This document shows, piece by piece, positions 5,421 through 27,514 of a stretch of 41,081 nt of DNA. Numbering within the stretch: the stretch's first letter is position 1; every line of letters starts with the position of its first letter. Source of the DNA: a virus; the IMG/VR virus record IMGVR_UViG_3300036851_000125, positions 1 to 41,081 of that record; one strand, written 5' to 3'. The notes under the pieces were generated by a model. That model made no database searches. It saw only the letters and a list, made by a program, of their open reading frames with translations, and had not been told where the DNA came from. Both the position numbers and the translations under genes were made by a program.

Positions 5421-5921
5421 ATGATCTATCTAGTCAAGTGCGGCGAGTACTACAAGATCGGCTACACGAGTGGCCGCACGGCAAACGAGCGCTTGAATTC
5501 GATGCAGACCGGCAACCCATACCCGATGACGCTGGCCGGTTTTTGGGAAGGCACCCGAGATCACGAAGCCGAGCTACATACCCATTTCGCGACACGCCGG
5601 GTCAGCGGCGAATGGTTTGCTCTGACTGACGAGGACGTTGCGACAGTCGAGTCCATTGCTAAGGCGATCGTGACCGGGGAGAGGCTGATACCGGAGACGC
5701 CGAAAGAGCCGCCGCGTTCTAAGTTCCCCGAAGGACTCAATGTGCCGGTCGAGGGATGCTACTGCGCGGGGTGTGCTTCACTGGTTCACTTCGTCGGCTC
5801 GCTCGATTATGTGGTCTGCGAGTTCTGCAAATGCCAGCTTTCGCAGAACTTGTATTTGCGATCTTCACGACGCGACCGCCGCGAGGCAATGCACGCCGTC
5901 GTTCGCGCTCACAAGCTATGA
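5421..5921 (+). CDS. T5orf172 / GIY-YIG-fold protein with C-terminal zinc ribbon
   Basis: Residues 1-75 fit the T5orf172 domain, a GIY-YIG relative: IYLVKCGEYYKIGYT, then LNSMQTGNPYPM, then EAELHTHF and GEWFALT. GIY-YIG proteins cut or bind DNA; in the T5orf172 group the nuclease activity is often unproven. After a linker, CYCAGC and CEFC are likely to form a zinc ribbon (residues about 112-140). It overlaps the integrase start by four bases (ATGA), placing it in the integrase transcription unit. It could be a homing-type or accessory nuclease. Confidence 0.7.
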   Translation: MIYLVKCGEYYKIGYTSGRTANERLNSMQTGNPYPMTLAGFWEGTRDHEAELHTHFATRRVSGEWFALTDEDVATVESIAKAIVTGERLIPETPKEPPRSKFPEGLNVPVEGCYCAGCASLVHFVGSLDYVVCEFCKCQLSQNLYLRSSRRDRREAMHAVVRAHKL

Positions 5922-7039
5922 CCCAGTACCTCAGCCACACCGAGGCCCTCGAATACGTGCAGCGCATGGCGGGACTGTCGCGCGACACATTCGACTCGAA
6001 CATTCGTCCGCGACTCGTTGAGCGCGCTTACTCCGACCGCGTGACCCGCTTCAGCCGTATTGCTATCGAAGCAGCAATCGACAACCCTTCGTTCGAGGAG
6101 GGCACAGAGATGCTGCTAAGAAGAAGAAACGTGTCCGATGCGCTCGAGGCCAACTGGGAGGCCGAGTGGTGCCGCCAGAAAGGTTCCAAGACGCAACGGT
6201 CCCTGGTTGATCAGGTCAAGCGCGAGATCGGCGACTGGGTGCTGAAGAAGATCGACTACAACCGCATCGAGAGCTGGGTCAAAGAGTTGCGGGATCGCGG
6301 GCTTGCTGAGGCCACGATCTCTCGCCGGCTCACCTGCCTCATGCGGGCATTGCGCCACGCCAAGATCAAGGGATGGCTCGCCGTCTTGCCCGAGAAACCG
6401 TCTATCTCGATCGACAACACGCGAGAGCGCTATCTCACGAGGGCCGAAGAAAACGCATTGCTCGCGGCTTGTGATCAGCTCGGCGACCGCGGTCGGATCA
6501 TGCGGCACGTCATCACGTTCCTGCTCGACACCGCGGCGCGCGTGTCGGATCTCGCCAAGGTCACTCCGGGCGACGTAACGACCGATGGCGTGATCTTCCG
6601 CGACCGCAAGGGCGGCGGGTCCAACAAGGTGCCGCTAACGGCCCGAGCTCGTGAAGCGCTCGACAAGTTACTGCGCGACGAGTGGTGGCAATCATGGACC
6701 GCGGACGCGCATCACCCCAACAAGGAAGTGCGCGACACCGAACTGAAGAACCTCAAGGACCGGCTAACGCACGACTTCCGGCTGGTTCGCAACAAGGCGC
6801 AGATTCTCGACGTGGTGCTGCATATCTGCCGGCACACGTGCATCTCGCGGCTCGTGCAGGCCGGCATGGATCTCGTGAAGGTGCAGCAGTGGGCCGGTCA
6901 CAAAGACTTCCGGATGACGCTGCGCTACGCGCACCTTTCGCCCACATCGCTGAACGTCGGCAAGGCGATCCTTGAGCGCGATTCGCAAGAAAGCTACAAC
7001 GTCGTGGACTTCGAGAAGCGCCGCATTTCTGAAGAGTAG
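5918..7039 (+). CDS. int: Tyrosine integrase
   Basis: A 373-residue site-specific recombinase. The C-terminal catalytic set is complete: R208 in TAARVSD, K231 in the beta hairpin, H302 and R305 in HICRH, H328 in WAGHKD and the nucleophile Y337 in LRYAH. The N-terminal half holds a SAM-like core-binding domain. The start at 5918 is chosen from the ATGA overlap with the upstream gene; a longer frame runs back into that gene. It would integrate the phage by recombination between attP and a host tRNA gene. attP lies 45 bp beyond its stop, the usual int-attP arrangement. Being in the rightward operon, int would be controlled by the repressor-sensitive promoter at 40161-40188. Confidence 0.93.
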   Translation: MTQYLSHTEALEYVQRMAGLSRDTFDSNIRPRLVERAYSDRVTRFSRIAIEAAIDNPSFEEGTEMLLRRRNVSDALEANWEAEWCRQKGSKTQRSLVDQVKREIGDWVLKKIDYNRIESWVKELRDRGLAEATISRRLTCLMRALRHAKIKGWLAVLPEKPSISIDNTRERYLTRAEENALLAACDQLGDRGRIMRHVITFLLDTAARVSDLAKVTPGDVTTDGVIFRDRKGGGSNKVPLTARAREALDKLLRDEWWQSWTADAHHPNKEVRDTELKNLKDRLTHDFRLVRNKAQILDVVLHICRHTCISRLVQAGMDLVKVQQWAGHKDFRMTLRYAHLSPTSLNVGKAILERDSQESYNVVDFEKRRISEE

Positions 7040-11323: not shown

Positions 11324-11623
11324 ATGGCAACGATGATGTTCAAAGAGTTGATCGACACGGCTGCGGCTGAAATGGTGGGGAAGCTCGAGAGCGAGGTGCG
11401 CGCCACCCTGGACGGCGCAGAGCCGGGCTTGACGCTGGCAGACATCAAGGCACGCTGCCGGATCGTTACCGTCTTAGGGAGCCCGGTAGAGACGCTGTGG
11501 CTCGACAATCTGCCATTGCTAGAATGGTGGCCGATCGAATCGGAGATGGAGCGCCGAGACGACAGCTACGTCGTCCGATACACGCGGCGGTATCGTCGCC
11601 TAGACGGCGTGCCGCGCGGCTAA
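11324..11623 (+). CDS. Last gene of the rightward operon (99 aa, hypothetical)
   Basis: ATG 11324 is chosen; an in-frame GTG at 11309 overlaps the previous TGA and is equally possible. The product has a helical N-terminus (MFKELIDTAAAEMVGKLESE) and an Arg-rich end. Its TAA at 11621-11623 overlaps the TAG (11620-11622) of the convergent minus-strand gene, leaving no room for an intergenic terminator. The function is unknown. Confidence 0.55.
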   Translation: MATMMFKELIDTAAAEMVGKLESEVRATLDGAEPGLTLADIKARCRIVTVLGSPVETLWLDNLPLLEWWPIESEMERRDDSYVVRYTRRYRRLDGVPRG

Positions 11624-11922
11624 CCTTTGCTCGCCAGCCGCGACAGCAATACCGCCCTCTCCGCCTCGAAGCTACGCAAGTCGATCCGCTCCGCTTCCGT
11701 GAGCTCGCGCAGCGCCGAGATGTCCTTCAGCCTCTGGATCTTGATCTCGATCAGATCGCGTCGGGTTCGTAGGTCTCCGTCCTCGCGGTCGGCGGCGAGT
11801 AGGTCGTGCTGCTGCTGCGCGCTGACCTCGTTCTCATAGCGCGCATCGAAGGCGAGCGTTGACACAACGATCGCGGCGACCGCGCCAGCAAGTCCATAGA
11901 CTGTCGTGATTCCGAGTTTCAT
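11620..11922 (-). CDS. Spanin-like (i-spanin/Rz-type) lysis protein
   Basis: A 100-residue protein with an N-terminal membrane anchor (LGITTVYGLAGAVAAIVVST) and then a charged, helical periplasmic part (QQQHDLLAADREDGDLRTRR and onward) of the kind seen in inner-membrane spanins. It is last in the lysis operon, two bases after the holin stop, where Rz usually lies. Spanins join inner and outer membranes in the final step of Gram-negative lysis. I did not find a separate or embedded lipoprotein o-spanin, so the assignment rests on position and topology. Confidence 0.6.
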   Translation of the reverse strand: MKLGITTVYGLAGAVAAIVVSTLAFDARYENEVSAQQQHDLLAADREDGDLRTRRDLIEIKIQRLKDISALRELTEAERIDLRSFEAERAVLLSRLASKG

Positions 11923-11924
11923 AA

Positions 11925-12230
11925 CTAGGTGGGCGTTGGCGTCTTGACCTTGCGGACGGCCATCCATGCGAGACCGATGGTCGTCACGATGACGCCTGCC
12001 AGCTCCATCAGCGCGTTATCGGATAGCACGAAACCGAGCGGGGCTGCGGCGGTCATCGCATGGCGCAAAAGGCCGAGCACGATTTGGGTCAACACTGCAC
12101 TATTCATGGGTAGTTCCTCTGTCTCGGCAGGTGGTAGCGCCTGCCCCGCTTTCTTTGCTTGCCTATGCGCCTTCCAGCGCTTGATGGGCCGGACGTCGAG
12201 CCACATCACAATTAGTCGGCCGAGGTTCAT
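11925..12230 (-). CDS. Holin, probably with two translational starts
   Basis: A 101-residue frame from ATG 12230, which overlaps the endolysin TGA. A second ATG at 12107 is preceded by AGAGGA at good distance and gives a 60-residue product beginning MNSAVLTQIVLGLLRHAMTA. That part has the short-holin pattern of phages: an LLRHAMTAAAPLGFVL amphipathic helix, a turn, then a membrane helix (LMELAGVIVTTIGLAWMAV) and a basic tail. The extra N-terminal 41 residues are strongly basic (RPIKRWKAHRQAKK). A dual-start holin with a charged extension would recall the holin/antiholin pairs of lambda S, but here this is inference. Confidence 0.7.
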   Translation of the reverse strand: MNLGRLIVMWLDVRPIKRWKAHRQAKKAGQALPPAETEELPMNSAVLTQIVLGLLRHAMTAAAPLGFVLSDNALMELAGVIVTTIGLAWMAVRKVKTPTPT

Positions 12231-12676
12231 GACAGCCGCCTTACTCCGAGCATGCTGTTGATCGGATAGCGCGCGATGTTCACGCTGTTCGATTGGTTGC
12301 CACCAAGGACGAGCACGACGGACTGATCAATGCCAGCGAATAGCCCGACGTGGCCTGGAGCGCCCGAAGTGATTTCTGGTCCAGGCTGCGGTCCTGTACC
12401 TCTCTTCAGGATCACTACGTCGAAGCCAGGGACTGCCAGGTCAATCTCGATTGGACGGCCGACGTTGAGCCATGAGCGAGCCGCAGACGACTTCGAGCGA
12501 GGCAGCCGCAGCATCCATGCCAAGGCATTGACGAAGCTCGAGCACCATGGCACCTCGTCCGGCGTCGATGGATCGAGGCCGCAAAGCGAGTGCGCCCACG
12601 AGATGAAACCGTTGTGCTTGTCGCCCGCGAGTTCGGCCATGCCAACGAAGCGTTGCGCGAGGTCGTAGAGCTTCAT
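12227..12676 (-). CDS. Endolysin, TIGR02594 type (CHAP/NlpC-P60-like peptidase)
   Basis: A 149-residue cytoplasmic enzyme without signal peptide, so it depends on the holin. DEVPWCSSFVNALAWML at about 40-56 gives the nucleophile C45. GHVGLFAG gives H109 and LGGNQSNSV gives the third polar residue at N127. This Cys-His-Asn arrangement and the motifs WCS, GHVG and GGNQ are those of the TIGR02594 family, which cuts peptidoglycan peptides. The start at 12676 is set by GGAGGGCGG upstream and by the TGA/ATG overlap with the small gene before it. Confidence 0.82.
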   Translation of the reverse strand: MKLYDLAQRFVGMAELAGDKHNGFISWAHSLCGLDPSTPDEVPWCSSFVNALAWMLRLPRSKSSAARSWLNVGRPIEIDLAVPGFDVVILKRGTGPQPGPEITSGAPGHVGLFAGIDQSVVLVLGGNQSNSVNIARYPINSMLGVRRLS

Positions 12677-12771
12677 ACCGCCCTCCGCATCAGGAACCAC
12701 AGCGCGAGATATATGGCGCGGCCACCGTAATGCGGCATTTGAATTCCTCGAAGTGTCGCCATGTCATCCAT
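12673..12771 (-). CDS. 32-residue membrane peptide ahead of the endolysin
   Basis: ATG 12771 has a near-perfect AAAGGAG four bases upstream, and the TGA (12673-12675) overlaps the endolysin ATG. The product starts MDDMATLRGIQMPHYGGRAI and ends with a hydrophobic helix YLALWFLMRRAV. It is the first frame downstream of the putative late promoter at 12788-12816. A start signal stronger than its neighbours' and exact coupling make it likely to be translated. It could be a small lysis regulator or only a leader that couples translation of the endolysin. Confidence 0.55.
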   Translation of the reverse strand: MDDMATLRGIQMPHYGGRAIYLALWFLMRRAV

Positions 12772-12787
12772 CGCTCCTTTGAGCAGT

Positions 12788-12816
12788 ATTGTTAGATGCA
12801 TCAATGTCAAAACCAA
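12788..12816 (-). promoter_or_regulatory. Putative late promoter/activator element, lysis operon copy
   Basis: On the minus strand the element reads TTGGTT-TTGACA, ten variable bases, then TAACAAT. The same two blocks with the same 10-bp gap occur at 33222-33250, ahead of the structural operon. Taking TAACAAT as the -10 and TTGGTT as the -35 (16-bp spacing), transcription would start just before AAAGGAG of the first lysis gene. A plain sigma-70 reading of TTGACA has no -10 at 16-18 bp, so a phage-specific activator is possible. Confidence 0.6.
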
Positions 12817-12926: not shown

Positions 12927-14078
12927 GTGTTTGACAAACATCTCTCCGTTCTTGCCTTTGCCGAGCGAATAATGCCCCGACTGTTCGCGCGGCTGGCCCG
13001 TTGGCTACTTACCGTCGCAGTCGGCCGTCGAAACTTCGAATATAGATTCCATCGCCGCTCGCGATATTTGCGCCGCGCTCTAGCGGGCAGGGCTGTAGGC
13101 GAAGCTGTCGATGACAGCCAGCTCGTTTCCAGAATCATCGCTTCCTACCGTTCCTTCTCTCATGAAGTATTCGGCGAATCCATGTGGAGCGACTTCTACA
13201 ACAGTCTGCACACGGATCTCCATGCTGCTCTCATGCACGGAAGCGCGGGGAGCGTTGCAGCACTCCTGCAAAACCCCGCTTCCTCGGATCTCTTCTACGG
13301 CTTCGAGAACTTATCGAAGTCGTTGCTGGCCGCCCCTCGATTGGAGGACATCAACGACCCGGCTCAAGCGCTCGATAGTCTTCTCTGCTTCGCCGAAGCC
13401 ATGGACGTGATCCGGCTCGAGAACCCGGAGAGCTATGGTCTGCGTGGACCGCGCCCTATTCCAGATGCAGACGAGATACTGGATGCAATTGAGCACCGCC
13501 TCGGCGTCGAACTGCCGATCCCCAACCCCTACCCAAAGGAATACGGCCTACAGACGCGCCGCGGCATACTCTCCTACCGCGCAGCCCAGGCCATGTACCA
13601 AGCCTGGCGCATCTGCGAATTAGTAGCCGGCATCGACAATCCGCGTGTTGTGGAAATCGGCGGCGGCCTCGGCCGCACTGCGTTCTATGCCAGAGTCATG
13701 GGCATCCGCCGCTACACGATCGTCGATGTCCCTATTTCGATCGTTGCGCAAAGCTATTTTTTGGGCCGCACACTGGGCGAGACATCCTTCGCCATCAGCC
13801 CAGAGCGTGGCGACTTCTGTCTCCAGTTGCCGCAAGACTTCTTCTCGGACCACACCACGTTTGACCTAGCCCTCAACGTGGACTCGCTAACCGAGCTAGA
13901 CCTCTACGTCGCCGAGCAGTACATAAACTCTCTTTCGGAGAGAGCCAAAACGCTGCTTTCTATCAATCACGAATCGAACGGCTTCACTGTCGCCAATCTA
14001 ACGCGGAAATATCGGCGCACCAGATCGCCATGTTGGACACGTCGAGGATACACCGAGGAATTGGTCTTCTTCTCTTAG
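12927..14078 (+). CDS. Putative sugar O-methyltransferase (moron)
   Basis: A 383-residue protein with a class I SAM-binding site: VVEIGGGLGRTAFYARVMGI at 241-260 and acidic D267 in YTIVDVP at the end of the second strand. The overall layout fits the 'putative sugar O-methyltransferase' family (TIGR04371) found in O-antigen and exopolysaccharide loci. It is alone on the plus strand between two minus-strand late operons, so it must have its own promoter and could be expressed in the prophage. Methylating a surface sugar would alter the host's phage receptor; this is inference. The start is GTG 12927 or ATG 12972; neither has a clear ribosome-binding site. The 110 bases before it hold no other gene. 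Confidence 0.65.
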   Translation: MFDKHLSVLAFAERIMPRLFARLARWLLTVAVGRRNFEYRFHRRSRYLRRALAGRAVGEAVDDSQLVSRIIASYRSFSHEVFGESMWSDFYNSLHTDLHAALMHGSAGSVAALLQNPASSDLFYGFENLSKSLLAAPRLEDINDPAQALDSLLCFAEAMDVIRLENPESYGLRGPRPIPDADEILDAIEHRLGVELPIPNPYPKEYGLQTRRGILSYRAAQAMYQAWRICELVAGIDNPRVVEIGGGLGRTAFYARVMGIRRYTIVDVPISIVAQSYFLGRTLGETSFAISPERGDFCLQLPQDFFSDHTTFDLALNVDSLTELDLYVAEQYINSLSERAKTLLSINHESNGFTVANLTRKYRRTRSPCWTRRGYTEELVFFS

Positions 14079-14105: not shown

Positions 14106-15857
14106 TCAGTTCACAGAACGAGCGACCTCGCGAAAATTCGTACCATCGAAAAGCAGTGTGATCGTGTCGTTAGCTGATGTGACAAAATTGCTAGACAACA
14201 GCAGGTTGTTACCGTCCGTGAACGTCAGCACATCAGCAAACTGAAGCACGTAGATCCCCGGCAGTAGCCCGGCGGTCACGATCGACGTGATGTTGGTTGT
14301 GCCTGTGATGTTGAAAAAGCGCGGTCCCACAGGAAGCGTGAGCGCAGCAGCCGACGCAGCATCTACCACAAGAGGACTCTGTACGGTGCCGCGGTTCGTA
14401 GCGCCAAACGACGGGTTTGAGCCAACATCAAGCGCATAGCCAGCGCCGTAGCACTGGTTGTCGCTCACAATTGCTTGAGTAGCGGTTGCGGCAAGATGAA
14501 TATCAGCAGTTGAAGCATTGGCGATCAGGTTTGCGAGGATGACGGCCTTTTCGTCGTGGGTGCCCTCTAGGCTGATGCCGTATGCGACTGTGCCCGTGGG
14601 ATACACAACAATTTCGTTGCCTTCGTAGATGCTCCCGTTTTGCCCAGATGAAGCATGATCGTTGACTGCGAGAATTCCGGAATTGGCCGTTGCCCCAGCT
14701 GCGAGTGCAATGTAGTTACCACAAACCTTGTTGTTGTACGACGGGGCTGTAGCAGAAGAAAAGAGGAAAACGCCGATGTCTCCGCACGAATCGAGTTCGT
14801 TATTTTCGATAACGAAGCTGAGTACGGCGAAGCCCTGAATCCCGCGCTGGAACCCAAAAAAGGTACTGTGATGGACTTTCCAACCTTCTTGGTTCAGCAC
14901 TCCGTCCCCGGCTTCCAAGCCGCGGCTGCCGGCATCGTTTCCCCCAACGAACTGAGAGTTTGCGATCGTATTGAGAAGCGATTGGCCGCTGGACTTCACG
15001 CCCTTCAAGAGAAAACTTCCGTAACATCCGTCGATCAGCGCAGAGTCGGTGCAGCCCAAATCAATAGCCGTGTTAAAGCCGTCGATGAATAAATCCTCGA
15101 ACACCGGCTGCTGACACTTGCTGGCGGTGGTGCCGTTCAACCCAATTCCGATATGCGTATTCGGAGCTGTCGTGTACCGCACTCCATGCGCCAGGCTGAA
15201 TCCACGGAAGGTCAAAAACGATAGCCCAGCTGCGCACGAAAACCCGGAGCAGTTGTCTGCCAAGATAAGGCTCAATCCCTTGCCGTCGCCAACCAACCCG
15301 GAGCGGCCGTTGGAAACTGTGATGTTGGTCGTGATTCGACACTCCCCTGCGTCCGCAGGCAGGTACACAGCAGCCCTAACCTCGGCTCCAACATCCATCG
15401 CCGCCTGGATAGCAGCCGTCATGTCGGTAGAGCCTGGTGTCGTGTTCGTGCCGTAGCGCAACGGATTGATAGGGTATGGCGGAACGGTGTAGTTAATCGG
15501 CACGATGCCTGCAGCAATCTCAGCGGCGGTTCTAGGATAAAAAATCTCGCCGATGATTTGCTGCGTGAGCCAGTTGATAGTGATGCCATCCACAGTCCAG
15601 ATCGGATTGGTCGGAGGATCTGTATCGCCAGCTGGCGCAAGCGTGAACTTGTACGACAGCAGCGGATCAAGCCACACCCGACACTCGCCTCGATAGTCGA
15701 GCTCGATCGGATTGGTGTTGACCGACAGGCCGGAAGCATCCGTATAGGTCGCAACCTTGGTTGTCGTTCCGGCCTCGTACGTGAATAAAAGCCCACCGAC
15801 CAACGGGCGACCGTTGTTGTCGCAAAACTTTTGGATGGGTAGCGGCGAGAGGTTCAT
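14106..15857 (-). CDS. Tailspike with beta-helix body (receptor-binding protein)
   Basis: A 583-residue protein. Residues 1-95 (KFCDNNGRPLVGG, YEAGTTTK, LDYRGECRVWLDP, PIWTVDGI) form the virion-attachment domain that is repeated in the neighbouring gene. The middle (about 130-500) has the look of a right-handed parallel beta-helix of the pectate-lyase type: AAIQAAMDVG with an AVYLPAG-like strand, then recurrent G, N, I/V strands. The C-terminal 70 residues (LPGIYVLQFADVLTF, NDTITLLFDGTNFREVARS) would close or trimerise the spike. Such spikes bind and often cut surface polysaccharide. ATG 15857 is preferred to the TTG at 15860. It is the last gene of the late operon. Confidence 0.85.
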   Translation of the reverse strand: MNLSPLPIQKFCDNNGRPLVGGLLFTYEAGTTTKVATYTDASGLSVNTNPIELDYRGECRVWLDPLLSYKFTLAPAGDTDPPTNPIWTVDGITINWLTQQIIGEIFYPRTAAEIAAGIVPINYTVPPYPINPLRYGTNTTPGSTDMTAAIQAAMDVGAEVRAAVYLPADAGECRITTNITVSNGRSGLVGDGKGLSLILADNCSGFSCAAGLSFLTFRGFSLAHGVRYTTAPNTHIGIGLNGTTASKCQQPVFEDLFIDGFNTAIDLGCTDSALIDGCYGSFLLKGVKSSGQSLLNTIANSQFVGGNDAGSRGLEAGDGVLNQEGWKVHHSTFFGFQRGIQGFAVLSFVIENNELDSCGDIGVFLFSSATAPSYNNKVCGNYIALAAGATANSGILAVNDHASSGQNGSIYEGNEIVVYPTGTVAYGISLEGTHDEKAVILANLIANASTADIHLAATATQAIVSDNQCYGAGYALDVGSNPSFGATNRGTVQSPLVVDAASAAALTLPVGPRFFNITGTTNITSIVTAGLLPGIYVLQFADVLTFTDGNNLLLSSNFVTSANDTITLLFDGTNFREVARSVN

Positions 15858-15860
15858 CAA

Positions 15861-16808
15861 TCAGCCCAGCGGATACGTGATAGTCCAGGCGAATGGGGGC
15901 CCCTTGTTGCCGCCGGCAGTGAAGCCAGACGGATTGACACCTGCAAAAAAGGTTAGTGTGCTGCCGCCCGAAAATCCGACGCACCCGAGCACGCGCAAGC
16001 CGTTGTCGATCAGTACCGTGGCAATGGTCGGGTCGCCGACGCTGATGTTGGGCATGACTTCTGCTGGCACGTTCGTGATCGTCATCGTTGTGGCGTCCGA
16101 TGTGCCCTGAGCGCCCGCCCATTCAAGCGTGGCGACACGCCCCGTAATTTGCCAGTCCATGACTCCGACCGGAGCGCTGAGCGCCGCGAATCCAGTCCAT
16201 GCTGGGTTCCACGACCCTTCTTGCAGGCTGGCCGCCAGCCCCGACACAAGCAGCACGAACCCAGTGCCGCGATACATGATCTGAGCGACCTGGTTGACGA
16301 CTAGCTGGCCCGCTCTCAGGATTGAGCCGTCCTGATTCGTGATCGCAACAGGTCCCAGCCCGTTCACGTTGATCGTGACTGCGAGGCCCGTGTTGGTATT
16401 GGATGGAATCCAAAAAATGACTGTGCCGTCCACGTACGAATCGAAGTTCGCCGTGAAATTCAGCACGTAGGCGTTGGGGCTGCCCGTATCAACGCCACCG
16501 TAGAGCGTTATGAGCTGCGAGCTCGTGACGTGGTCAACCGACCAAATGGGAGACCCCGGCGGGTCCGTATCGGTTGCAAGCGCAAGCACGTATTTGTAGC
16601 CAACGTTAGGATCCACCCACAGACTGCACTCGCCGCGATAGTCGAGAATGATCGGATTCGTGTTCGGAGTGAGGCCAGTCGAGCTCGTGTAAGTCGTCGC
16701 CTTCGTTGTCGTGGCCGCCTCATATACGAATAACTTGCCCCCTACGAGCGGGCGACCGTTGTTGTCGAAAAACTGCTGTTTGGCAGCGGGGGATAGGACG
16801 GTTGTCAT
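15861..16808 (-). CDS. Tail fibre/adaptor sharing the attachment domain of the tailspike
   Basis: A 315-residue protein whose first 95 residues (FFDNNGRPLVGG, YEAATTTK, LDYRGECSLWVDP, PIWSVDHV) are clearly paralogous to those of the next gene. The rest differs: a middle domain (DGTVIFWIPSNTNTGLAVTI, then AITNQDGSILRAGQLV) seen in many phage fibres, and a beta-rich end with WNPAWTGFAAL, TMTITNVPAEV and VLGCVGFSGG. The ATG at 16808 has GGAGGGCGG upstream. Two proteins with one attachment domain suggest two receptor-binding proteins, or a base on which the second is mounted. Confidence 0.75.
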   Translation of the reverse strand: MTTVLSPAAKQQFFDNNGRPLVGGKLFVYEAATTTKATTYTSSTGLTPNTNPIILDYRGECSLWVDPNVGYKYVLALATDTDPPGSPIWSVDHVTSSQLITLYGGVDTGSPNAYVLNFTANFDSYVDGTVIFWIPSNTNTGLAVTINVNGLGPVAITNQDGSILRAGQLVVNQVAQIMYRGTGFVLLVSGLAASLQEGSWNPAWTGFAALSAPVGVMDWQITGRVATLEWAGAQGTSDATTMTITNVPAEVMPNISVGDPTIATVLIDNGLRVLGCVGFSGGSTLTFFAGVNPSGFTAGGNKGPPFAWTITYPLG

Positions 16809-16854
16809 AACGACCGCCCTCCGTCACAGACAAATCGCAGGACGCCGCGGTGCG

Positions 16855-18897
16855 TCATTGCGTTTCTCGCGATGGCCTAAGCAACTGATTCAATCGCTGC
16901 GCGTCGAGTCCAGCTCCAGGCTTTAGCGCCTCGTCCACGTACTTTGTGGTACGACGCCTCTCGACATAGTTGCGGATCATCGGGATCGGGATGCCCGTCT
17001 TCGCCATCACTGCGCTTTCCATAGCGCCCTGAGCGCCCTCCGCGAGCAACGCGGTCGCCGTGTTCGATGTGTTCACGAACGAGCCTCGAGGTTGCGCGGT
17101 GGTCGCCCGTGCGTACGAACCTAGCGCTTGTAGCTGTTCAGCGGTCTCGGCAGGTAGTAACTCTCGCATCCGCGGGTCAAGCTCGCGCAACGTCTCGTTG
17201 TATCGAGCAGCCGCAAAGTTCCCGGTTGACGGCACGGCCCGTTGCTTCAGGTAGTTCAGCGTTCCAGCCGTGATCGTCTCGCCAGCCATCGGGTCATCGG
17301 CCAGCGTCTGACGCATACGGGCAATGTTGGCGGCACGACCCCGGATCACGTACTGATCGACAAATTTATCGGCCAGCGCGGACGCCTCGCCTAGCGGTAC
17401 GTCATCGTCCACGGCGGCACGGTAAGCAGGATCGAGCTCGATACTACGGAAGCGGCTCTTGGCGGCCGTGCGCGCCGCATCTGCAAGCGGCTTTAACGTT
17501 TCTGCTGCGGGGCCTGCGAGAGGTAGCTCCTCGAGCGCGCTTCGTACTGCACTGATAGCGCCTGCCGCGTTGCCATTGCCTTGTCGTTCCGCTGTACGTG
17601 CCGCGCTCGCTAGAACCGTGCGCATCGTCTCGAAGTCACGGAACGTCATTCCCTCTTTGGCGTCGTTCATCAGCGAGCGAACTTCGGCAGGGAGCCAGTG
17701 CGTCTTGCCCGACTCGCGGAGCGCATTCTCGGCCATGACGCCGAAGGCTTGATGGTCGATCGTCGATCCCGTTTCTTTCATCGCTTCACGCAACGCGGAG
17801 TACTTGGCTGAAATATCCGCGCGCACGTCTGTGTCGTAGGCCTTGTAGCTGTCCACGAGGGTTTGGCCGTTCTGTATAACGTCACTGCCCACAACGTTCG
17901 GTGTGGTCTCGCGGCGGATGTCGTCGAGCTTCTCGACCATCGCTTCGTTCTGGGCTGTAAATCGTGCCCGCAGCCTGTCATCCGTGCCGCGCAAGTTTTG
18001 CTCGCGGGAAATATCGGCCGGATTGCCGGTCGCTTGGCCGCGGGTTAACGGCGGCAAATCGAGCTGGTCGGCCGCGATGTGCGCTTCGGCCACTTCTGGC
18101 TTCAGCGTGCCGGCCGCGGCCTTGGCACGAAGCTCGGCGCGAAGCTCGGGGCTTCGGATCTGGTTCAGGTCGACGCTACGGGCCGCTGCGCCACCACCGC
18201 TCGCGCCGAGTTGTATGGGAGCATCGGGGCGAATCGCCTCACGGCCGAGCACCTCGCCCGACTCACCGTAGATCGTTCTCACAGGAGTGTCGGGGGCGCC
18301 GCGAACTAACCGGGTCGTAGGTGCCAAGGTGAGAGCCGAGGCGGCCAAGTCCGAGATGACCGGGAAATGCTCTTGAGCGGCCTCCAGAACCGGACCCGCC
18401 ACTTGTGGAATGCCCGTGGCCTGTATGACTTCACCGGCAGCAGCTCCCAATTCCCTGCCACCACCAGTTTTTAGGTTGGCCCCTTGTTCGCGATAAGGAA
18501 GTCCGCGCTCACGAGCTCGTGCGGCCTCGTATGTGTCGTTCGGATCAATAGCGCCGATCACCCCAGCCAAGGTGCCGGCAAGCTGATTGCTGGCGGCCGA
18601 AGCCCCGGAGGCGACTAGATCGGCCACCCCAACTCCGGCTCGCACGATATCTTTGCCCGAAGTCAGTGCCGCATTGGGTGGCGTGTCGAAGCCTTGCTTC
18701 CACCACGGCAACGCATCCTCTTCGCGTGGGCCTGAGAATGGGGCTTGCTCGATGGGTCCCACAAAGGGTTTGGCATTAGCGGCTTCGGCGTTGAATTGCG
18801 CAACGAACTCGCTCGCTCGCTGAGGAACGGCCGGAGGTTCGTCGCCGTCGATCTCCGCAATGAGGTCGGCCGCGAATTGGCTCGCTTTTTTGCTCAC
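16855..18897 (-). CDS. Ejected internal virion protein (P22 gp16-like position)
   Basis: A 680-residue, Ala-rich, highly helical protein with no enzymatic signature. It contains a hydrophobic stretch near residues 88-118 (VRAGVGVADLVASGASAASN) that could insert in membrane, and long helices in the C-terminal two thirds. It is the third of three consecutive ejection-type genes, in the place of P22 gene 16, whose product enters the cell envelope with the DNA. No transglycosylase motif is visible. The start overlaps the previous stop. Confidence 0.65.
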   Translation of the reverse strand: MSKKASQFAADLIAEIDGDEPPAVPQRASEFVAQFNAEAANAKPFVGPIEQAPFSGPREEDALPWWKQGFDTPPNAALTSGKDIVRAGVGVADLVASGASAASNQLAGTLAGVIGAIDPNDTYEAARARERGLPYREQGANLKTGGGRELGAAAGEVIQATGIPQVAGPVLEAAQEHFPVISDLAASALTLAPTTRLVRGAPDTPVRTIYGESGEVLGREAIRPDAPIQLGASGGGAAARSVDLNQIRSPELRAELRAKAAAGTLKPEVAEAHIAADQLDLPPLTRGQATGNPADISREQNLRGTDDRLRARFTAQNEAMVEKLDDIRRETTPNVVGSDVIQNGQTLVDSYKAYDTDVRADISAKYSALREAMKETGSTIDHQAFGVMAENALRESGKTHWLPAEVRSLMNDAKEGMTFRDFETMRTVLASAARTAERQGNGNAAGAISAVRSALEELPLAGPAAETLKPLADAARTAAKSRFRSIELDPAYRAAVDDDVPLGEASALADKFVDQYVIRGRAANIARMRQTLADDPMAGETITAGTLNYLKQRAVPSTGNFAAARYNETLRELDPRMRELLPAETAEQLQALGSYARATTAQPRGSFVNTSNTATALLAEGAQGAMESAVMAKTGIPIPMIRNYVERRRTTKYVDEALKPGAGLDAQRLNQLLRPSRETQ

Positions 18898-20336
18898 TGC
18901 GGCAACCGCCCCGTTTCGGTCAGCGATTCCAGATTGGCGAGGTTATTGCCGATCGCGGCACGTTTCGCTGGCTCAAGGTCCTTGAGCAACGCGCGCGCTT
19001 CATCCTCTTTACCGCGGGCGAGGGCGTCCTGGACACGAAGCGCAGTGAGATCTGCATTCTGCTGCCATTCGCGACGAAACAACGGAATCTGCGGCGAGCT
19101 ATAGTCGGGCTTATCGCCGCCAGCGGCGATCTCGAGCCCTTGCCGATAATCGCTCAGTCCGCGCGCCGTGGCCGAATTAATCGTGGCAATTTCGCGCAGC
19201 ACCTTGGGGTTAAATTCAGTCGTCCCCATCGCGTGAGCCGCTGCATCTAGACGCGCGTCGCTTGATCCCCCCATCTCAGCCATCGCGGCGATGCTGTCGC
19301 GGGCGAGGTACTTCTGCATCTCTTGAATCTTGTCACCAGTAAACTGGCCAACAAATCCCAAGCTCTGCAACCTCGACACGAGCGGTCCAGTCTCCGCGCC
19401 CGAATCGAGAATGTTGATCACACTGCCGGAGTTATTCAGCCGCTCTGGCACAGCGTCGGCCGCAGTACGCACACGCGATATGTATTCTTGATTCTGTTTG
19501 ACGGCTTCGGGTTGCCCAACGAACTGCGGCTGAGTGAAGCTCAAGCTCGGCGCAGACGGAGGAGCGCTCGGCGGCGCTGGCACACCTCGAGGCGGTGCGG
19601 CTTGTCCCACCGGCGTAACGGTATTGGTTTGCCGGTCGAACACGAACTGCGCGCCTTTCGCGTCTGTGAGGATTTCAGCGCCGGGCGCGAGCTCCTTCGC
19701 AATCGGGTCTGTCGGTATCGCGTTAGGATTGATGTTCCTGAGCTCGGCCCCAGTATCGGTGAGAACCGGCTGTTGGGCGCCCAACTGCGATTCAATGCTG
19801 GCGCCCTGCAATCCGATGTTGCGCAGCGTGTCTCTGAGCTTGCCCGACGGCGAGGCTTGCACAAACGGCGCATACGCTTTCAGAACCGGGAGCGCATCCT
19901 CGCCGTGAATCTCGCCGAAGTTGACCATCGCTTGCGTGACTTTCTGGCGACCCTCGGGCGTGTCACTCACCACGTCCGGGTCGCTGCGCAGAGCATTCAT
20001 CATCGTCGCGAATTCGCTGCGCTGTGAGCTGCGCAGATTCACCAGCGATTGTTGTGCGGCAAGCTGGCGCTCCTTCATGCTGATCGCGCTTTGCACCACG
20101 CTTTGATACTGATCGCCCGCAGCCGACATCAGCTCCGGATCGTTGAGCGATGGCACATCGATCGTGCCATCGGCTCCTACGTGCCTATTCCAGTCATACG
20201 AGGCGAGCGCGGATTTTTGTCGCTGTTCTTGCTGCTCAACCTGCAACGCGGTGCGGCTGCGCTGCACTGACAGCAGCGACGAGAGACGCTCAAGCGGGTC
20301 GCGGCGCTGAACATGCAGACCGACAGGTTCTGGCAT
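18894..20336 (-). CDS. Ejected internal virion protein (P22 gp20-like position)
   Basis: A 480-residue protein starting MPEPVGLHVQRRDPLERLSS after a strong GGGGAGG site. The N-terminal 120 residues are helical and Gln-rich (ALQVEQQEQRQKSALASYDW). A Pro-rich segment (GQAAPPRGVPAPPSAPPSAP) separates it from a helical C-terminal domain. Position between gp7- and gp16-like genes suggests a DNA-ejection protein. It overlaps its downstream neighbour by four bases. Confidence 0.6.
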   Translation of the reverse strand: MPEPVGLHVQRRDPLERLSSLLSVQRSRTALQVEQQEQRQKSALASYDWNRHVGADGTIDVPSLNDPELMSAAGDQYQSVVQSAISMKERQLAAQQSLVNLRSSQRSEFATMMNALRSDPDVVSDTPEGRQKVTQAMVNFGEIHGEDALPVLKAYAPFVQASPSGKLRDTLRNIGLQGASIESQLGAQQPVLTDTGAELRNINPNAIPTDPIAKELAPGAEILTDAKGAQFVFDRQTNTVTPVGQAAPPRGVPAPPSAPPSAPSLSFTQPQFVGQPEAVKQNQEYISRVRTAADAVPERLNNSGSVINILDSGAETGPLVSRLQSLGFVGQFTGDKIQEMQKYLARDSIAAMAEMGGSSDARLDAAAHAMGTTEFNPKVLREIATINSATARGLSDYRQGLEIAAGGDKPDYSSPQIPLFRREWQQNADLTALRVQDALARGKEDEARALLKDLEPAKRAAIGNNLANLESLTETGRLPQ

Positions 20337-20338
20337 GG

Positions 20339-21502
20339 CTAGCCCCCTCCCCACGTAGCACGTCCGGCTGGCGTGTTGAACAGCCAATAGTTCGTAGCTG
20401 CATCACCCGCCGCACCGCCCGCGCCAACGACTCCACCGCCGTACGCGCTACCTTGATTCATGATCGCCTGGCCACCGGTTGCCGCCGCTTGAGTGCCGGC
20501 CGATCCCACACCGGCCGCCGACGACTGGCCTAAGCGCGCGATATCGGATAGGCGGCTGAAAATGTTCCCTTGCTGCACTTGGTAGCGATTGAACGCATTC
20601 CCATACTCAGTGCTGGCCATGTCTTGGTTGTATGCCAAGAGATCCTTGATCGCGGCACCGGAGAATGCTCCGCTGCCGGCCGACGCTTTGTTGAGCAGCG
20701 CTTGCTCGCCTTGGCGCAGACGAAAGTCGTAGCCCGGGTCCTTGTACTGTTCGAACCGCTCGGCGTCGAACGGCTGCACCAGTTCGCCGCTGCCGCCTTC
20801 AGTCAGCCCGAGAAGATCGGCGAGCTTGGCGTTGCCGGCATAACCGCCCTGCACGAACGGATTCAGTAGCTCGCGGTTCGCTTGGAACATTTCGCGCGAA
20901 AGGTCCGCGGCGTCGCCAGCGGCGTCACCCTGGATCTTGCCGCCGAGCAATGAGCCGCCTGCACTGATGAGGCTTGAAAGGAGCAATGGATTCATACCGC
21001 CGCCTGCTGCTGTTGCCGCACCGCCTGCGAGCGGGCTAACCGAAACTGGACCGCCTGCCGCCAACGGGAACGTGGACGCGCTTCCACCCGCGCTACTGCC
21101 AGCGCCCGCCACAGCACCAGCGCCAATATTGGCCAGCGCCGATCCGATCCCGGCGCCTAGAAATCCGAGCTGGGCGATGTTCGTGCCGGTTTGGGAGAAC
21201 GGGCTCACGACGCCTTGCGGCAAAGCTCGTGCGGCCGTCGCGTTCAGAATCGACGTGAATCGCTGCTCGGGTGTCGTTTGGCCCCACGACCTCACAATCC
21301 CCGGCGAGGACATTCCAGCTCCCGGCGGAGTGTCGGACTGAGACGCCGCAGTGGCTTCCGCCACCAACTGTTGCCACTTTTCGGGAGAGATATGCGGAGC
21401 GGCCCAATCTGGTATGGGAATCTGGCTACTGCCAGCAGCCGTTGATCCCGACATGAAGCCGGACAGACTTTGCGGAGGGGCGTAACCGATAGGGGTCGGC
21501 AT
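20339..21502 (-). CDS. DNA-ejection protein (P22 gp7-like)
   Basis: A 387-residue protein, rich in Gly/Ala/Ser in the first half (low-complexity, membrane-compatible helices such as GFLGAGIGSALANIGAGAVA). A recognisable C-terminal segment follows: DPGYDFRLRQGEQALLNKAS, then GSGAFSGAAIKDL and ASTEYGNAFNRYQVQQGNIF. This corresponds to the conserved 'DFR-QGE-A-SGA-Y-NA-R' pattern of gp7-type ejection proteins. ATG 21502 overlaps the TAA of the previous gene. Confidence 0.75.
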   Translation of the reverse strand: MPTPIGYAPPQSLSGFMSGSTAAGSSQIPIPDWAAPHISPEKWQQLVAEATAASQSDTPPGAGMSSPGIVRSWGQTTPEQRFTSILNATAARALPQGVVSPFSQTGTNIAQLGFLGAGIGSALANIGAGAVAGAGSSAGGSASTFPLAAGGPVSVSPLAGGAATAAGGGMNPLLLSSLISAGGSLLGGKIQGDAAGDAADLSREMFQANRELLNPFVQGGYAGNAKLADLLGLTEGGSGELVQPFDAERFEQYKDPGYDFRLRQGEQALLNKASAGSGAFSGAAIKDLLAYNQDMASTEYGNAFNRYQVQQGNIFSRLSDIARLGQSSAAGVGSAGTQAAATGGQAIMNQGSAYGGGVVGAGGAAGDAATNYWLFNTPAGRATWGGG

Positions 21503-21843
21503 TAGGTCGGCACGAAAGTCACAACGGGGGCGACGCTGTAAGTGACCTCGAGCCGATCGGCAGCGTTCAGGGGGAACATGCCGTTCGTCGCACCGACATT
21601 ATAGAAGGTGGAGCCGTCCCGTGAAAAGCGAATTTGGGAGACTGTGCCGCCGTTCACGATCACCGAGCCCTTTACCGGAGCGGAGTACGTGAACGGTGAT
21701 CCCGTTAGAGTCACCGACGACTCAAACGCAGGCGCCAACCCCTGGAAGAGCCCGACAAAGAAGAAGTACCAATCCTTGTTCGTGACTCCCGCTTGCGAGA
21801 GCGGTTGGTTGAACTGCGGAAGCCTGTTGAACTGTTGCGCCAT
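21502..21843 (-). CDS. Small tail-associated protein (113 aa)
   Basis: A 113-residue beta-rich protein with TLTGSPFTYSAPVKGSVIVN and QIRFSRDGSTFYNVGATNGM, the repeating pattern of a small phage tail or fibre domain. It sits between the tail hub and the ejection proteins, where P22 has its needle and assembly genes, but no coiled-coil needle is visible. TAATG overlaps occur at both ends. Structural role inferred from position. Confidence 0.55.
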   Translation of the reverse strand: MAQQFNRLPQFNQPLSQAGVTNKDWYFFFVGLFQGLAPAFESSVTLTGSPFTYSAPVKGSVIVNGGTVSQIRFSRDGSTFYNVGATNGMFPLNAADRLEVTYSVAPVVTFVPT

Positions 21844-23372
21844 TACGCAGCCTCGACCTCGCCCTGAGCGAACAACGTCGCGCCGACGATATCGCGGCTC
21901 ACGGGGTCGCTAATCGACATCTCGTACACGCGATCACGCGCATGTCCTAAGCGCCGCCAAAGAGCGCGGTTCTTGTAGCGCCCCGCCTTCCCGATGGTCG
22001 TCCAATGCTCATTGCCGAAGGTGCTGCCGCCGTCATCCGACCATCGAAGCATCGCCTGCGGATTCTCGCCCTGCCCTGTTTGAAGTCCGACGCCGGGCGC
22101 GAAGTCGATTTGTAGCGACGCGTGAAACAACCGCTTGCGGTTCTCTCGACTCCACAAGTGCGGAGCTCGGCGCACGGCAACAAGCGGCTGAGTCGTCAGC
22201 GCGCCATTCGAATCAAGCGCGCTATCCTCATACACCTGGCGGCTCAGCAGATTGATGTAGCCGCTTTGATAGTCGCCCATGAGCCGCAGGTTTTGCAGAT
22301 TCATGAAGCAGTTGCCGCGGAAGCGGTGATACGTGCCGGTGACAGAGTCGAACGATGCCCGCTCGTGCCACAAGTTGGTCATTGCGTCGTAAGCCCAGGT
22401 CTTGTCGGCAGTCGGGAACACGAGCAAATAGAAGAGATGGCCGTCCTCTTCGTAGGACAGGCCGATCGCATCGGAAACTAGCGGATAGCTAGCAATGGCG
22501 CTGTTGATGGCCGTCGTCGAAATGATTTCGTAGCTGTATTGATTCGTGCGAACGACGACGTTCTGGCCCTGCTCATTCCGCGCGAGCCACATTAAGTTTG
22601 TGCCGACTCTAGTGAGCGAATTCACAGCCGCACAGCCGATCTGCGGCGCAACTCCGGGGATCCGAGAGAACGAGAAGTTAGCCCCTCCGGCGTTGTACCA
22701 AACCTCTGACGTGCGCTCACCGATCAGCCACAACTCACGGTTGTTCTCCATGAGCGTGATGAGGTTGTCGGAGCTCGAGTCTTTGAGCGCGAAGAACGCC
22801 CCAGCGAATGTGATCGTGTAGGGCAACGGCGCGTTCGTGTAAAACGACTGCGTTCCCGGACGGTTGAAGATCCACCAACCGTCAATGAACGCCACGCGAT
22901 CAGCCCCGAGAAAGGCCGGATCGGTGATCTGAGTTACGGTATTGGTCGCGAGCTCGACGAGATAACCATAGGGCCCATCCACGATCACCGCGTAGCCGCC
23001 CAGCCCGTTATCGCGGATGGATACCGGCCCATGATTCGTCAGTAGCCCTGAATAGATCAGCGAAGCCGAAAACTGTGCGATGCTCGTCTGCGTGGCGGGA
23101 ACGGTCGTCGTGATTCGGTAAACGTCTTCGCTGCACACCACGATGGCGTCAGTTCCGCCTGGTAGCACCCACAAGCCACGGACTTCGGTTGCCGCCGTAA
23201 GCTCGATCAGAGCGCGCTGCCCTGGACAGCCGAGCAACGCAGTCGGGGTTTTGCTCTTGTCGTCCTGGGATATCTCGACGTAGTAGTTGATGCTGCGCTG
23301 CGCATCCTGATAGATATCGGGCGCTTGGTAGGCGGCACCGACGAACCCGAAATCGCCGCCACGGTATGCCAT
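21843..23372 (-). CDS. Tail hub / DNA-stabilisation protein (P22 gp10-like)
   Basis: A 509-residue protein with the start typical of the gp10 family (AYQAPDIYQDAQRSINYYVE, then TALLGCPGQRAL). It has repeated four-stranded sheets expected of a beta-propeller, for example RIPGVAPQIGCAAVNSLTRV, then a YEEDGHLFYLLVFP blade. In P22, gp10 closes the portal channel beneath gp4 and holds the spikes. The next gene upstream is gp4-like, as in P22. Length is close to the P22 protein. Confidence 0.85.
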   Translation of the reverse strand: MAYRGGDFGFVGAAYQAPDIYQDAQRSINYYVEISQDDKSKTPTALLGCPGQRALIELTAATEVRGLWVLPGGTDAIVVCSEDVYRITTTVPATQTSIAQFSASLIYSGLLTNHGPVSIRDNGLGGYAVIVDGPYGYLVELATNTVTQITDPAFLGADRVAFIDGWWIFNRPGTQSFYTNAPLPYTITFAGAFFALKDSSSDNLITLMENNRELWLIGERTSEVWYNAGGANFSFSRIPGVAPQIGCAAVNSLTRVGTNLMWLARNEQGQNVVVRTNQYSYEIISTTAINSAIASYPLVSDAIGLSYEEDGHLFYLLVFPTADKTWAYDAMTNLWHERASFDSVTGTYHRFRGNCFMNLQNLRLMGDYQSGYINLLSRQVYEDSALDSNGALTTQPLVAVRRAPHLWSRENRKRLFHASLQIDFAPGVGLQTGQGENPQAMLRWSDDGGSTFGNEHWTTIGKAGRYKNRALWRRLGHARDRVYEMSISDPVSRDIVGATLFAQGEVEAA

Positions 23373-23376
23373 GGCA

Positions 23377-24321
23377 CTATCTGAAACCGCCGTAGAGATA
23401 CCACCCGGCGTCGGTCATCTGCGCTTGGATGAGCAGATTTGAGTCGTAGTTGCTCACCGGCGTCGGCACAGCGTTGAGCGCTTTTACGTTGTCGTACGCT
23501 TCTTTGTAGAGTCGCTCCTGTTGCTGCGTCCAAATCGCTCCGTACTCAGGCGCCAAGTCGCGTCCTAGCGCGCGCTTGAGCGCTCGGACGTACCCCTGCG
23601 GCAGCGCAACCTCGGTGGTCAAATCCGCGAACACCGTCAACACGTAGTCGGAAAATAGAAATAGCTGAGCCGAGTCCGAAGGGTTCTGATAGAAAAATAA
23701 CGTGCCGAGCGGCATCGTCGGGTTGTACCAAAGCAGAATCGGCCATGGCGCTTGAATCGCTTTGAAGCCGATGTTGACGTACCGCGACTGATCGACGATC
23801 TCAATCGGGTAATCGAGGCCGGAGCCTTGCGTGTAGATACGCGTGAACGCATTCGTGATGCGCAACGGTCGCGGCATCTTGAAATCACCGGGGATCGTGT
23901 AGCCGATTTGCTGCGGCGGCACGCTCACTGTGGCATTCGCCGACATCGTGACCGTGTTGGCGATGGCGTTGAAGCTCACGATCGTCGTGCCTTCGGGAAT
24001 GCCAGCTCCCGTCAGATCGCCGTTCGCAATCATGTCGGCGGGCACCGTGGCTGCGGTGATCGTCGGCGATCCGTTCGTCAGCGTTCCAGCGAATGTCCCG
24101 GCGTCGTAGTTGCCGATCGTGTACTGATACTGACCGGGGACATACGTGAATGTCTGCTCATTGGACGCATAGACGCTGATCTTGTCGGTAGACCACGAGT
24201 CCAGTAGATCGTTGAGCGTCTCAAGCGCATCGTCCGCATCCGCAGAGTCAAGCGACTCGCCTGGGGAGTATTGATTGATGAATCTCAGGCTGCCAATAAT
24301 TAGGTCCTGCGCGGTCGTCAT
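23377..24321 (-). CDS. Head-to-tail adaptor (P22 gp4-like) with an inserted beta domain
   Basis: A 314-residue protein. The helical N-terminus (ALETLNDLLDSWSTDKISVY) and the C-terminal part (LPQGYVRALKRALGRDLAPE, then an EAYDNVKALN helix) fit the gp4 adaptor family that binds the portal and stabilises packaged DNA. It is about twice the length of P22 gp4. The extra length includes residues 75-140, a small beta domain (GTLTNGSPTITAATVP, GAGIPEGTTIVSF) also known as a module in phage tail and head proteins. It directly precedes the gp10-like gene. Confidence 0.75.
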   Translation of the reverse strand: MTTAQDLIIGSLRFINQYSPGESLDSADADDALETLNDLLDSWSTDKISVYASNEQTFTYVPGQYQYTIGNYDAGTFAGTLTNGSPTITAATVPADMIANGDLTGAGIPEGTTIVSFNAIANTVTMSANATVSVPPQQIGYTIPGDFKMPRPLRITNAFTRIYTQGSGLDYPIEIVDQSRYVNIGFKAIQAPWPILLWYNPTMPLGTLFFYQNPSDSAQLFLFSDYVLTVFADLTTEVALPQGYVRALKRALGRDLAPEYGAIWTQQQERLYKEAYDNVKALNAVPTPVSNYDSNLLIQAQMTDAGWYLYGGFR

Positions 24322-24332
24322 TGCGGCTCGCT

Positions 24333-24887
24333 TTAACTTCCTAGGCGACGCAACATCAGCCAGCTACCGCGAAATACAGCGGTGAATCCCGGATCAGACA
24401 CCGCCTGCGCCCACGCGAAAGCGATCGTCACGGTGTCATCCAATGTGACGAAACCGCGGAAATGAATGCCAGTGATATTGGCGTTAGTGAGCGTATAGGC
24501 GAGCCCCGCGGGAACGATCGCGGGTACATGAACCTGAGTGATGTTCAGCGTCGTCGCCTGTTGACCGGCGAGCCCCAGCACGTAAGAACTCGATACCGGC
24601 GTGTCGCTGACGCTGAAGCCGGCACTTAAGCCCGGCGTGTTGTTGGCAGCGTTGGCCGCTACGAAGGCTTCGATTTCATAGGTGCCCGCAACCACATTCG
24701 CGATAGTCAGCTCAGGATCATCTGCAAGCGCTGTGATGCTGACGCGGCTCGTGATGACTGTTTTGTATGCGGCCAGAATCCGATTGGGCGCCGGAATCTG
24801 GCTTGAGGGGATCTGTCCATTCGCATCGAGCGGGCCTGCGCCACCGCCCGCTACGCCGATCACAGAGCCGCCCAGAGACTTGATCAC
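24333..24887 (-). CDS. Virion-associated hypothetical protein (184 aa)
   Basis: GTG 24887 overlaps the previous TGA, so the long in-frame extension upstream is not used. After IKSLGGSVIGVAGGGAGPLD comes a linker (NGQIPSSQIPAPN) and a beta-sandwich-like body (VVAGTYEIEAFVAANA, HFRGFVTLDDTVTIAFAWAQ). It may decorate the head or join head and tail; position among structural genes is the only guide. Confidence 0.6.
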   Translation of the reverse strand: MIKSLGGSVIGVAGGGAGPLDANGQIPSSQIPAPNRILAAYKTVITSRVSITALADDPELTIANVVAGTYEIEAFVAANAANNTPGLSAGFSVSDTPVSSSYVLGLAGQQATTLNITQVHVPAIVPAGLAYTLTNANITGIHFRGFVTLDDTVTIAFAWAQAVSDPGFTAVFRGSWLMLRRLGS

Positions 24888-25252
24888 AGGCCGCCGCCGC
24901 GGGTGAAGATCACATTGCCGGTCGCCGCAGCGGTACCGAGAATGACGGAGGCGCCGCTCACTTCGGGGTGCACGGTCACTACGACAACCGCTCCAGGGCC
25001 AACCGGGTAGCCGTCCGCGACGGTTGCAGGAACGACATTGCCGAAAACGCCGAAGTTCACGTAAGCCCACGAGCTTGACAGGTTCGCTATCTGGAACTGG
25101 ACGAAGTTGTTGCTCTCCGTGCCAGCGAACCGATCGCTCGGGCTTGCTGCATCTGTTGCGGCGACAGTCGTGCTCGGCTCCAGCGTTCCTGCAACGTTCG
25201 GATTCTGCGTGCTCGGCGTGTAGAGCGGAAAGAACGCACGTGTGTCGTGCAT
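24884..25252 (-). CDS. Virion-associated hypothetical protein (122 aa)
   Basis: A beta-rich protein: NNFVQFQIANLSSSWAYVNF, then GPGAVVVVTVHPEVSGASVI. Such short sandwich proteins beside coat genes are often decoration or joining proteins. It lies two bases from the upstream gene and overlaps the next one, so they are co-translated. Confidence 0.6.
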   Translation of the reverse strand: MHDTRAFFPLYTPSTQNPNVAGTLEPSTTVAATDAASPSDRFAGTESNNFVQFQIANLSSSWAYVNFGVFGNVVPATVADGYPVGPGAVVVVTVHPEVSGASVILGTAAATGNVIFTRGGGL

Positions 25253-25254
25253 GG

Positions 25255-25590
25255 CTACACGATCGCAGTCGGCTGCGGTGCCTGATTCTGCGGGCGCGCT
25301 ATGACGACGAGATATGGCTCTGCGGTCAGCGAGGGGGTGGCAGCAGTGAAATTGCCGAAAGTGATTGCCAGTATGTTGGCGGCCGAAACGCGCATATTGA
25401 CAATGCCGATGCCCCCTTGAAACGTCGGCTTGTTGACTGCCATGACGACGTCTCCAGGAAGCACGCCAGGAGCAGCATATGTCCGCTCTTCCGCAGTGTT
25501 GGCCAAAAGCGGAGCGCCAGCGGGAATTGCCACCTGCAGCACCATGGTGAGCTGAATGTTTCCGCGTGCAATGTCTGATGGGCCGGGCAT
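25255..25590 (-). CDS. Virion-associated hypothetical protein (111 aa)
   Basis: ATG 25590 has AGGAG eight bases upstream, just after a strong hairpin. The sequence is beta-rich (IQLTMVLQVAIPAGAPLLAN, PGVLPGDVVMAVNKPTFQGG). It was probably acquired or duplicated within a small cluster of three beta proteins between coat and adaptor. I do not recognise a family. Confidence 0.6.
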   Translation of the reverse strand: MPGPSDIARGNIQLTMVLQVAIPAGAPLLANTAEERTYAAPGVLPGDVVMAVNKPTFQGGIGIVNMRVSAANILAITFGNFTAATPSLTAEPYLVVIARPQNQAPQPTAIV

Positions 25591-25603
25591 GTGTGAGTCT
25601 CCT

Positions 25604-25632
25604 AAAATGCCCCGGTTGTAAGCCGGGGCATT
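25604..25632 (-). terminator. Intrinsic terminator/attenuator after the decoration gene
   Basis: A perfect 10-bp stem (AATGCCCCGG / CCGGGGCATT) with a 7-base loop is followed on the minus strand by only four T. It lies between the coat-region genes and the lower-demand genes downstream. The short U-tract suggests partial termination, which would give coat and its neighbour more transcript than distal genes. On the plus strand it would also stop antisense transcription poorly. Confidence 0.7.
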
Positions 25633-25635
25633 GGA

Positions 25636-26106
25636 CTAGGCAGAGAGGTCGTAGCCGTAGAAATAAACATCCACGGTCACGCTGGGCACGGCCACAGTGT
25701 TGTTCACATAGACCGTCTGGCTTGTGACGATGACTGACAGCGCAGCCACAAGCACCGTCTGCGGGACAACCGTCGTTGGGCCCGTGACACCCGCCAAGAC
25801 GCCAACCGCACGGAAGTTCTGACCCGTCACCCCTGGACCGGCATTGATCGTGATGTTGGCCGCCGCCGCCGATCCGCCCACGGCATTGCCGACCAAGATG
25901 GACGACACGACGTAACTGGTCGCGTTGATGACGGTCATCGCGGCCACATCGCCCGTGCCTGCAAGACTGACGCCCTTGGCTACGGCGAGCAGTCGTAGAG
26001 CATTGGAGCCCTGAACGACAGGATTTCTGTTCGTGCTGACCGGCGTCTGAACTTCGACGGTCTGCGGCGTCTGCGTGACCGCCGGACCTGGATTCACTGA
26101 AGGCAT
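25636..26106 (-). CDS. Probable head decoration/fibre protein (156 aa)
   Basis: ATG 26106 with AAAGGAGA upstream; the longer frame is discarded. A Pro/Thr/Gln-rich N-terminus leads to a beta-rich body (AVAKGVSLAGTGDVAAMTVI, NITINAGPGVTGQNFRAVGV). It lies right after the major coat gene and before a strong hairpin, which implies high expression. Decoration is the best guess, without a homology argument. Confidence 0.55.
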   Translation of the reverse strand: MPSVNPGPAVTQTPQTVEVQTPVSTNRNPVVQGSNALRLLAVAKGVSLAGTGDVAAMTVINATSYVVSSILVGNAVGGSAAAANITINAGPGVTGQNFRAVGVLAGVTGPTTVVPQTVLVAALSVIVTSQTVYVNNTVAVPSVTVDVYFYGYDLSA

Positions 26107-26125
26107 GTTCTTTCTCCTTTTCCCT

Positions 26126-27481: not shown

Positions 27482-27514
27482 CGAAGTGGCTCCTGAAAGA
27501 GGTTGTCATGTCCA

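Follow-up and report, generated by a model that had tools for sequence, protein, structure and literature searches.

In phage lambda, the late genes are transcribed from a single late promoter, pR', with the antiterminator Q acting on a leader of roughly 200 nt that ends in a terminator. Phage P2, by comparison, employs several late promoters that cover the capsid and lysis genes under the activator Ogr, the sites of which are TGT-N12-ACA dyads centred near -55. In phage Mu, the late promoters Plys, PI, PP and Pmom are activated by protein C (PMC4461284).

The window analyzed here is a virus record of 41,081 bases with a 120-base repeat at both ends; it encodes a temperate phage with podophage-like structural genes. 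This genome contains two exact copies of a 29-bp pattern, TTGGTTTTGACA-N9-CTAACAAT, both on the minus strand, one at the 5' end of the lysis unit (site 1) and one at the 5' end of the structural operon (site 2). From their sequence and position, we consider it fairly probable that each element represents the core (-35 to -7) of a late promoter, and that a host polymerase of the sigma70 type uses the two under common regulation.

Genome layout and the two late units

The genes for the helicase, ParB-like, NinG and NinB proteins are located on the minus strand, with ninB/ninG preceding the late operon (Table 1). The first gene of this operon encodes a GroES/Cpn10-like protein, homologues of which sit near or before the terminase gene in many related phages; the ATG at 33213 is backed by homologue alignments that begin at or near this position. 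An exact-peptide search recovered no relatives of the GroES-like gene or of the zinc/HTH ORF. In the nearest structural relative (TerL 78%), which has only structural genes in common with the window, the GroES-like gene directly follows another ORF. The lysis genes also occupy the minus strand (12.77-11.62 kb) and are separated from the tail genes by a methyltransferase-like gene with its own predicted promoter at 12870. The latter gene had no match in named phages and is possibly a cargo gene whose product would modify surface sugars. The first-pass annotation, which placed a lysis cassette downstream of site 1 and a head/tail operon downstream of site 2, was broadly right.

Table 1. Positions of the genes, predicted promoters and predicted leaders discussed in the text
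Feature	Coordinates	Strand	Remarks
Integrase	5756-7039		
Spanin candidate, small ORF	11620-11967	minus	sequence only; no meaningful family match
Holin candidate, small membrane-type ORF	11925-12230	minus	sequence only; no family match
Endolysin, TIGR02594-like	12227-12700	minus	E 4e-18, just below NCBI cut-off
Tiny first ORF of lysis unit	12673-12771	minus	32 aa
Predicted lysis-message leader	12772-12780	minus	9 nt, with Shine-Dalgarno AAAGGAG; start predicted from the -10
Site 1, predicted lysis promoter	12788-12816	minus	12816-12788 reads TTGGTTTTGACATTGATGCATCTAACAAT; -35 12816-12811, TTGACA 12810-12805, -10 12793-12788
Sugar O-methyltransferase-like gene	12927-14078	plus	TIGR04371 E=1e-9, sub-threshold
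Terminase, portal, scaffold, capsid, head closure, ejection and tail genes	14106-32712	minus	
GroES/Cpn10-like, first structural-operon gene	32839-33213	minus	Pfam Cpn10 E=6e-4, sub-threshold
Predicted leader of GroES-like gene	33214-33215	minus	2 nt, near-leaderless; predicted start
Site 2, predicted structural-operon promoter	33222-33250	minus	33250-33222 reads TTGGTTTTGACAGTGGCACGCCTAACAAT; -35 33250-33245, TTGACA 33244-33239, -10 33227-33222
Helicase, ParB-like, NinG, NinB genes	38.5-34.2 kb	minus	
Cro/CI-like regulators	39.1-39.8 kb		

Several other features of the genome deserve mention. A 27-bp tandem repeat (CACGCCGCAGCGACGGGCGACAGAGGT), apparently within a gene, extends across the record ends (1-234 and 40937-41081), and repeat units may have been lost or gained at the circular join of these ends; another short tandem repeat, of the GGCTCCGGCGAC/GGCTAC type, is found at 2138-2320, within the ORF 2069-2662. 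The N-terminal parts of two tail genes (14106-15860 and 15861-16808) contain near-identical stretches (15667-15880 and 16610-16830), as if one of these genes was produced by a partial duplication, and relatives align to both genes through one shared region. A small zinc-ribbon ORF (33123-33441) that matches the N-terminus of HNH/endonuclease VII proteins is placed where lambdoid phages keep Q, and extends in frame through site 2.

The paired element and its probable promoter register

The first-pass annotation described a bipartite element ahead of both the lysis cassette and the head/tail operon, and both copies are present at these positions on the minus strand. The element has 20 fixed bases, and the two copies are identical at 23 of the 29 positions, with 4 matches among the 10 bases of the middle. 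The two blocks originally described are indeed spaced alike, but the second is one base longer than the TAACAAT given for it. The gap to the first ATG downstream is 16 nt for site 1 (lysis unit) and 8 nt for site 2 (GroES-like gene). As had been noted by eye, there is no third copy: genome-wide, the best match after this pair scores 15/20 and lies inside a gene.

All positions on both strands were scored with a simple sigma70 matrix of general hexamer frequencies. At both sites, and with equal scores, the best register of the element is TTGGTT (-35) and AACAAT (-10) separated by 17 bp, which falls at the 99.93 percentile (top 0.07% of positions). The length of the element, 29 = 6+17+6, is exactly that of one -35/-10 pair with canonical spacing. 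This pair matches the consensus at only 7 of 12 bases, and equally good sigma70 matches are contained in approximately 5-10% of random 130-bp stretches. Site 1 is the top match of its 5' region; site 2 ranks second in its own, narrowly outscored by a match at 33387 within the zinc-ribbon ORF. Directly before either late unit, no further strong sigma70 site was detected on the minus strand. The same matrix identifies the early promoters at 40161 (plus strand) and 39339 (minus strand) as strong hits, and both putative late promoters score weaker than these.

The element also includes TTGACA, conserved in the 17-bp spacer at both sites, which the first-pass annotation took for a -35 hexamer that lacks a -10 at the normal distance; this description does not hold given the ordinary TTGGTT-N17-AACAAT pair. 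The proposal built on it was a dedicated class of late promoters or an activator site, with TTGACA as the -35 and TAACAAT bound by a phage factor that would replace the -10. The perfect and fully conserved TTGACA, along with the partial conservation of the surrounding spacer, speaks for this possibility. However, the score of this register is the lower one at both sites, and very low at site 2; TAACAAT would then be unusually placed, at about -20 to -14; with the ordinary register, both blocks are accounted for without a new factor; and no candidate phage factor was found among the proteins scanned. We therefore consider this proposal unlikely: what survives of it is a promoter-like element common to both late 5' ends, whereas a special promoter class is unsupported. 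Because the ordinary register fits the 29 bp, there is no need for an exotic polymerase or sigma factor, and neither a phage RNA polymerase nor a dedicated late sigma factor was detected among the proteins scanned with PHROGs, Pfam and NCBIfam.

The shared sequence overlaps the presumed start region of both units, so it could instead be the site of a phage or host regulator rather than the promoter itself, such as an operator keeping the two late units silent during lysogeny. The more obvious operator candidates in this genome are, however, four perfect ATAGG-N5-CCTAT palindromes that form two pairs (39315-39353 and 40147-40185), 24 bp apart within each pair. Each pair overlaps a predicted sigma70 early promoter (39339, minus strand; 40161, plus strand), and the pairs likely correspond to a lambda-like oR/oL arrangement for Cro/CI-like regulators, judging from their layout. 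Given this overlap, the likely repressor operators differ from the 29-bp element, in which the palindrome is absent; furthermore, the element has no clear dyad and fits the -35 to -7 interval exactly. A regulator site distinct from a promoter accordingly appears distinctly improbable.

Chance, conservation and coding potential

A chance resemblance between two AT-rich upstream sequences has to be weighed as well. The zero copies expected for the exact pattern are no guide here, being a circular estimate because the pattern was derived from the sequence itself. Each order-3 Markov simulation of the whole genome yielded 0-3 direct two-block repeats with at least 19 matched bases, so that the similarity alone is unremarkable: such repeats are expected about once genome-wide, and this, together with the lack of conservation among the relatives searched, favors chance. 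Against chance stands the placement of the two copies. Among 225,227 dinucleotide shuffles of the two late 5' regions, 7 reached at least 18 and none exceeded 18, compared with the observed 20. In 1826 same-strand pairs of 5' regions from 15 related phages, the maximum was 16 versus 20 for this pair, that is, related phages yielded no analogous paired element above 16; the next-best pair of 5' regions within the window scores 12. By virtue of its placement at two late 5' regions, the element exceeds chance, and we accord coincidence a low probability.

The first-pass annotation had named, beforehand, conservation in close relatives as a test that could refute its proposal, and the outcome formally goes against it, the element being absent in every relative checked: nothing above the control rate was found in TerL relatives (IMG/VR), endolysin relatives, helicase relatives or the 399 genomes searched from the order that includes Dyella, a cultured organism whose TerL is about 61% identical. 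This absence is weak evidence because what these relatives have in common with the phage is limited to structural, helicase/ParB-like or endolysin genes and does not extend to the regulatory part of its genome. A change of activator, moreover, is expected to bring a change of late promoters. An exact match in IMG/VR was rejected as it maps to the coding region of an apparently unrelated phage. The first-pass annotation knew of no description of the element, and literature searches likewise found none for this sequence.

A coding or RNA-level element is very improbable, whether as the peptide GFD...NN, which one frame of both copies could encode, or as a structure controlling translation close to the start codon: site 2 does lie within the in-frame extension of the zinc-ribbon ORF ending at 33123, and the predicted fold of its RNA is somewhat more stable than those of shuffles (z -2.2), but no comparable fold is seen at site 1 (z 0.08), its GFD frame lacks a start codon and soon ends, so that the peptide was rejected for want of such an ORF at site 1, and there is no Rfam match. 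A tRNA search found nothing.

Proposed co-regulated late promoters and known late-control systems

The presence of one element at the 5' ends of both late units makes coordinated late transcription the best reading. Under the favored interpretation as a pair of late promoters, host RNA polymerase would start both units from twin weak promoters, TTGGTT-17-AACAAT. The elements' sequence, position, register and copy number are observed, as is the lack of a close match in the genomes searched; promoter activity, start sites, late timing and the activator are what we infer. The predicted starts are the A at 33215 for site 2 and about 12780 for site 1. Site 2 would launch the packaging, head and tail operon with an almost leaderless message; the lysis message from site 1 would carry a very short leader, beginning near the Shine-Dalgarno sequence. 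The lysis genes would use their own copy of the promoter, being cut off from the structural operon by the opposing methyltransferase-like gene: the separation by this plus-strand gene is the reason a second promoter would be needed. Read-through from upstream with antitermination is a possible alternative to own promoters.

A phage-made late activator would probably be needed and might contact the conserved spacer TTGACA, a possible extra activator site; such an activator is plausible because both promoters, with their 7/12 consensus bases, are weaker than the early ones. The more specific conjecture that an undescribed phage activator acts between the -35 and the -10, at TTGACA, and co-switches lysis and assembly at near-leaderless promoters is a doubtful one. 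If the promoter interpretation is right, late promoters can be assigned to a group of temperate podophage-like viruses that is otherwise unstudied, and the arrangement shows how lysis can remain coupled to assembly once the late genes have been split by a gene of opposite orientation; it would also illustrate how a -35 look-alike within the spacer can conceal an ordinary promoter.

This phage has lambda-like control: ninB/ninG precede the late operon, and the Cro/CI-like genes are accompanied by paired operators. Unlike lambda, it has two predicted promoters, for which the leaders would measure about 2 and 9 nt. With 8 and 16 nt separating the element from the ATG, a leader plus terminator would not fit, which makes a lambda-Q mechanism for the late units unlikely; in addition, no convincing Q homologue was detected, the best PHROG Q-like match being at E=0.025. 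The likeness to P2 consists in several late promoters, with capsid and lysis genes under one activator; in contrast to P2, no shared sequence of the TGT-N12-ACA type occurs upstream of either element, and the search turned up no Ogr-like protein. Among the ORFs scanned, there is no gene of the C/Mor or Ogr family, and several small ORFs have no family.

Mu and this phage have no detectable relation. The Mu C site is located upstream of or overlapping the -35, whereas here the similarity stops at the -35: there is no conserved activator site upstream of it, and a two-block comparison of the 5' regions gives the element itself as the best match. Likewise, C is known in Mu, whereas no C homologue was found here among the proteins scanned; membership in the Mu C type is thus unsupported. 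One feature of an activator-dependent multi-promoter late system is present, namely one element before both the lysis and the morphogenesis units. Mu has several weak host-polymerase promoters with non-consensus -10 and -35 sequences, one before lysis and others before morphogenesis genes (PMC4461284), and the predicted promoters of this phage would be of the same sort. The C-dependent promoters of Mu are the closest idea, and this resemblance would hold if an activator exists. The element is of an ordinary kind in an unstudied phage, and the strategy is one already known from Mu.
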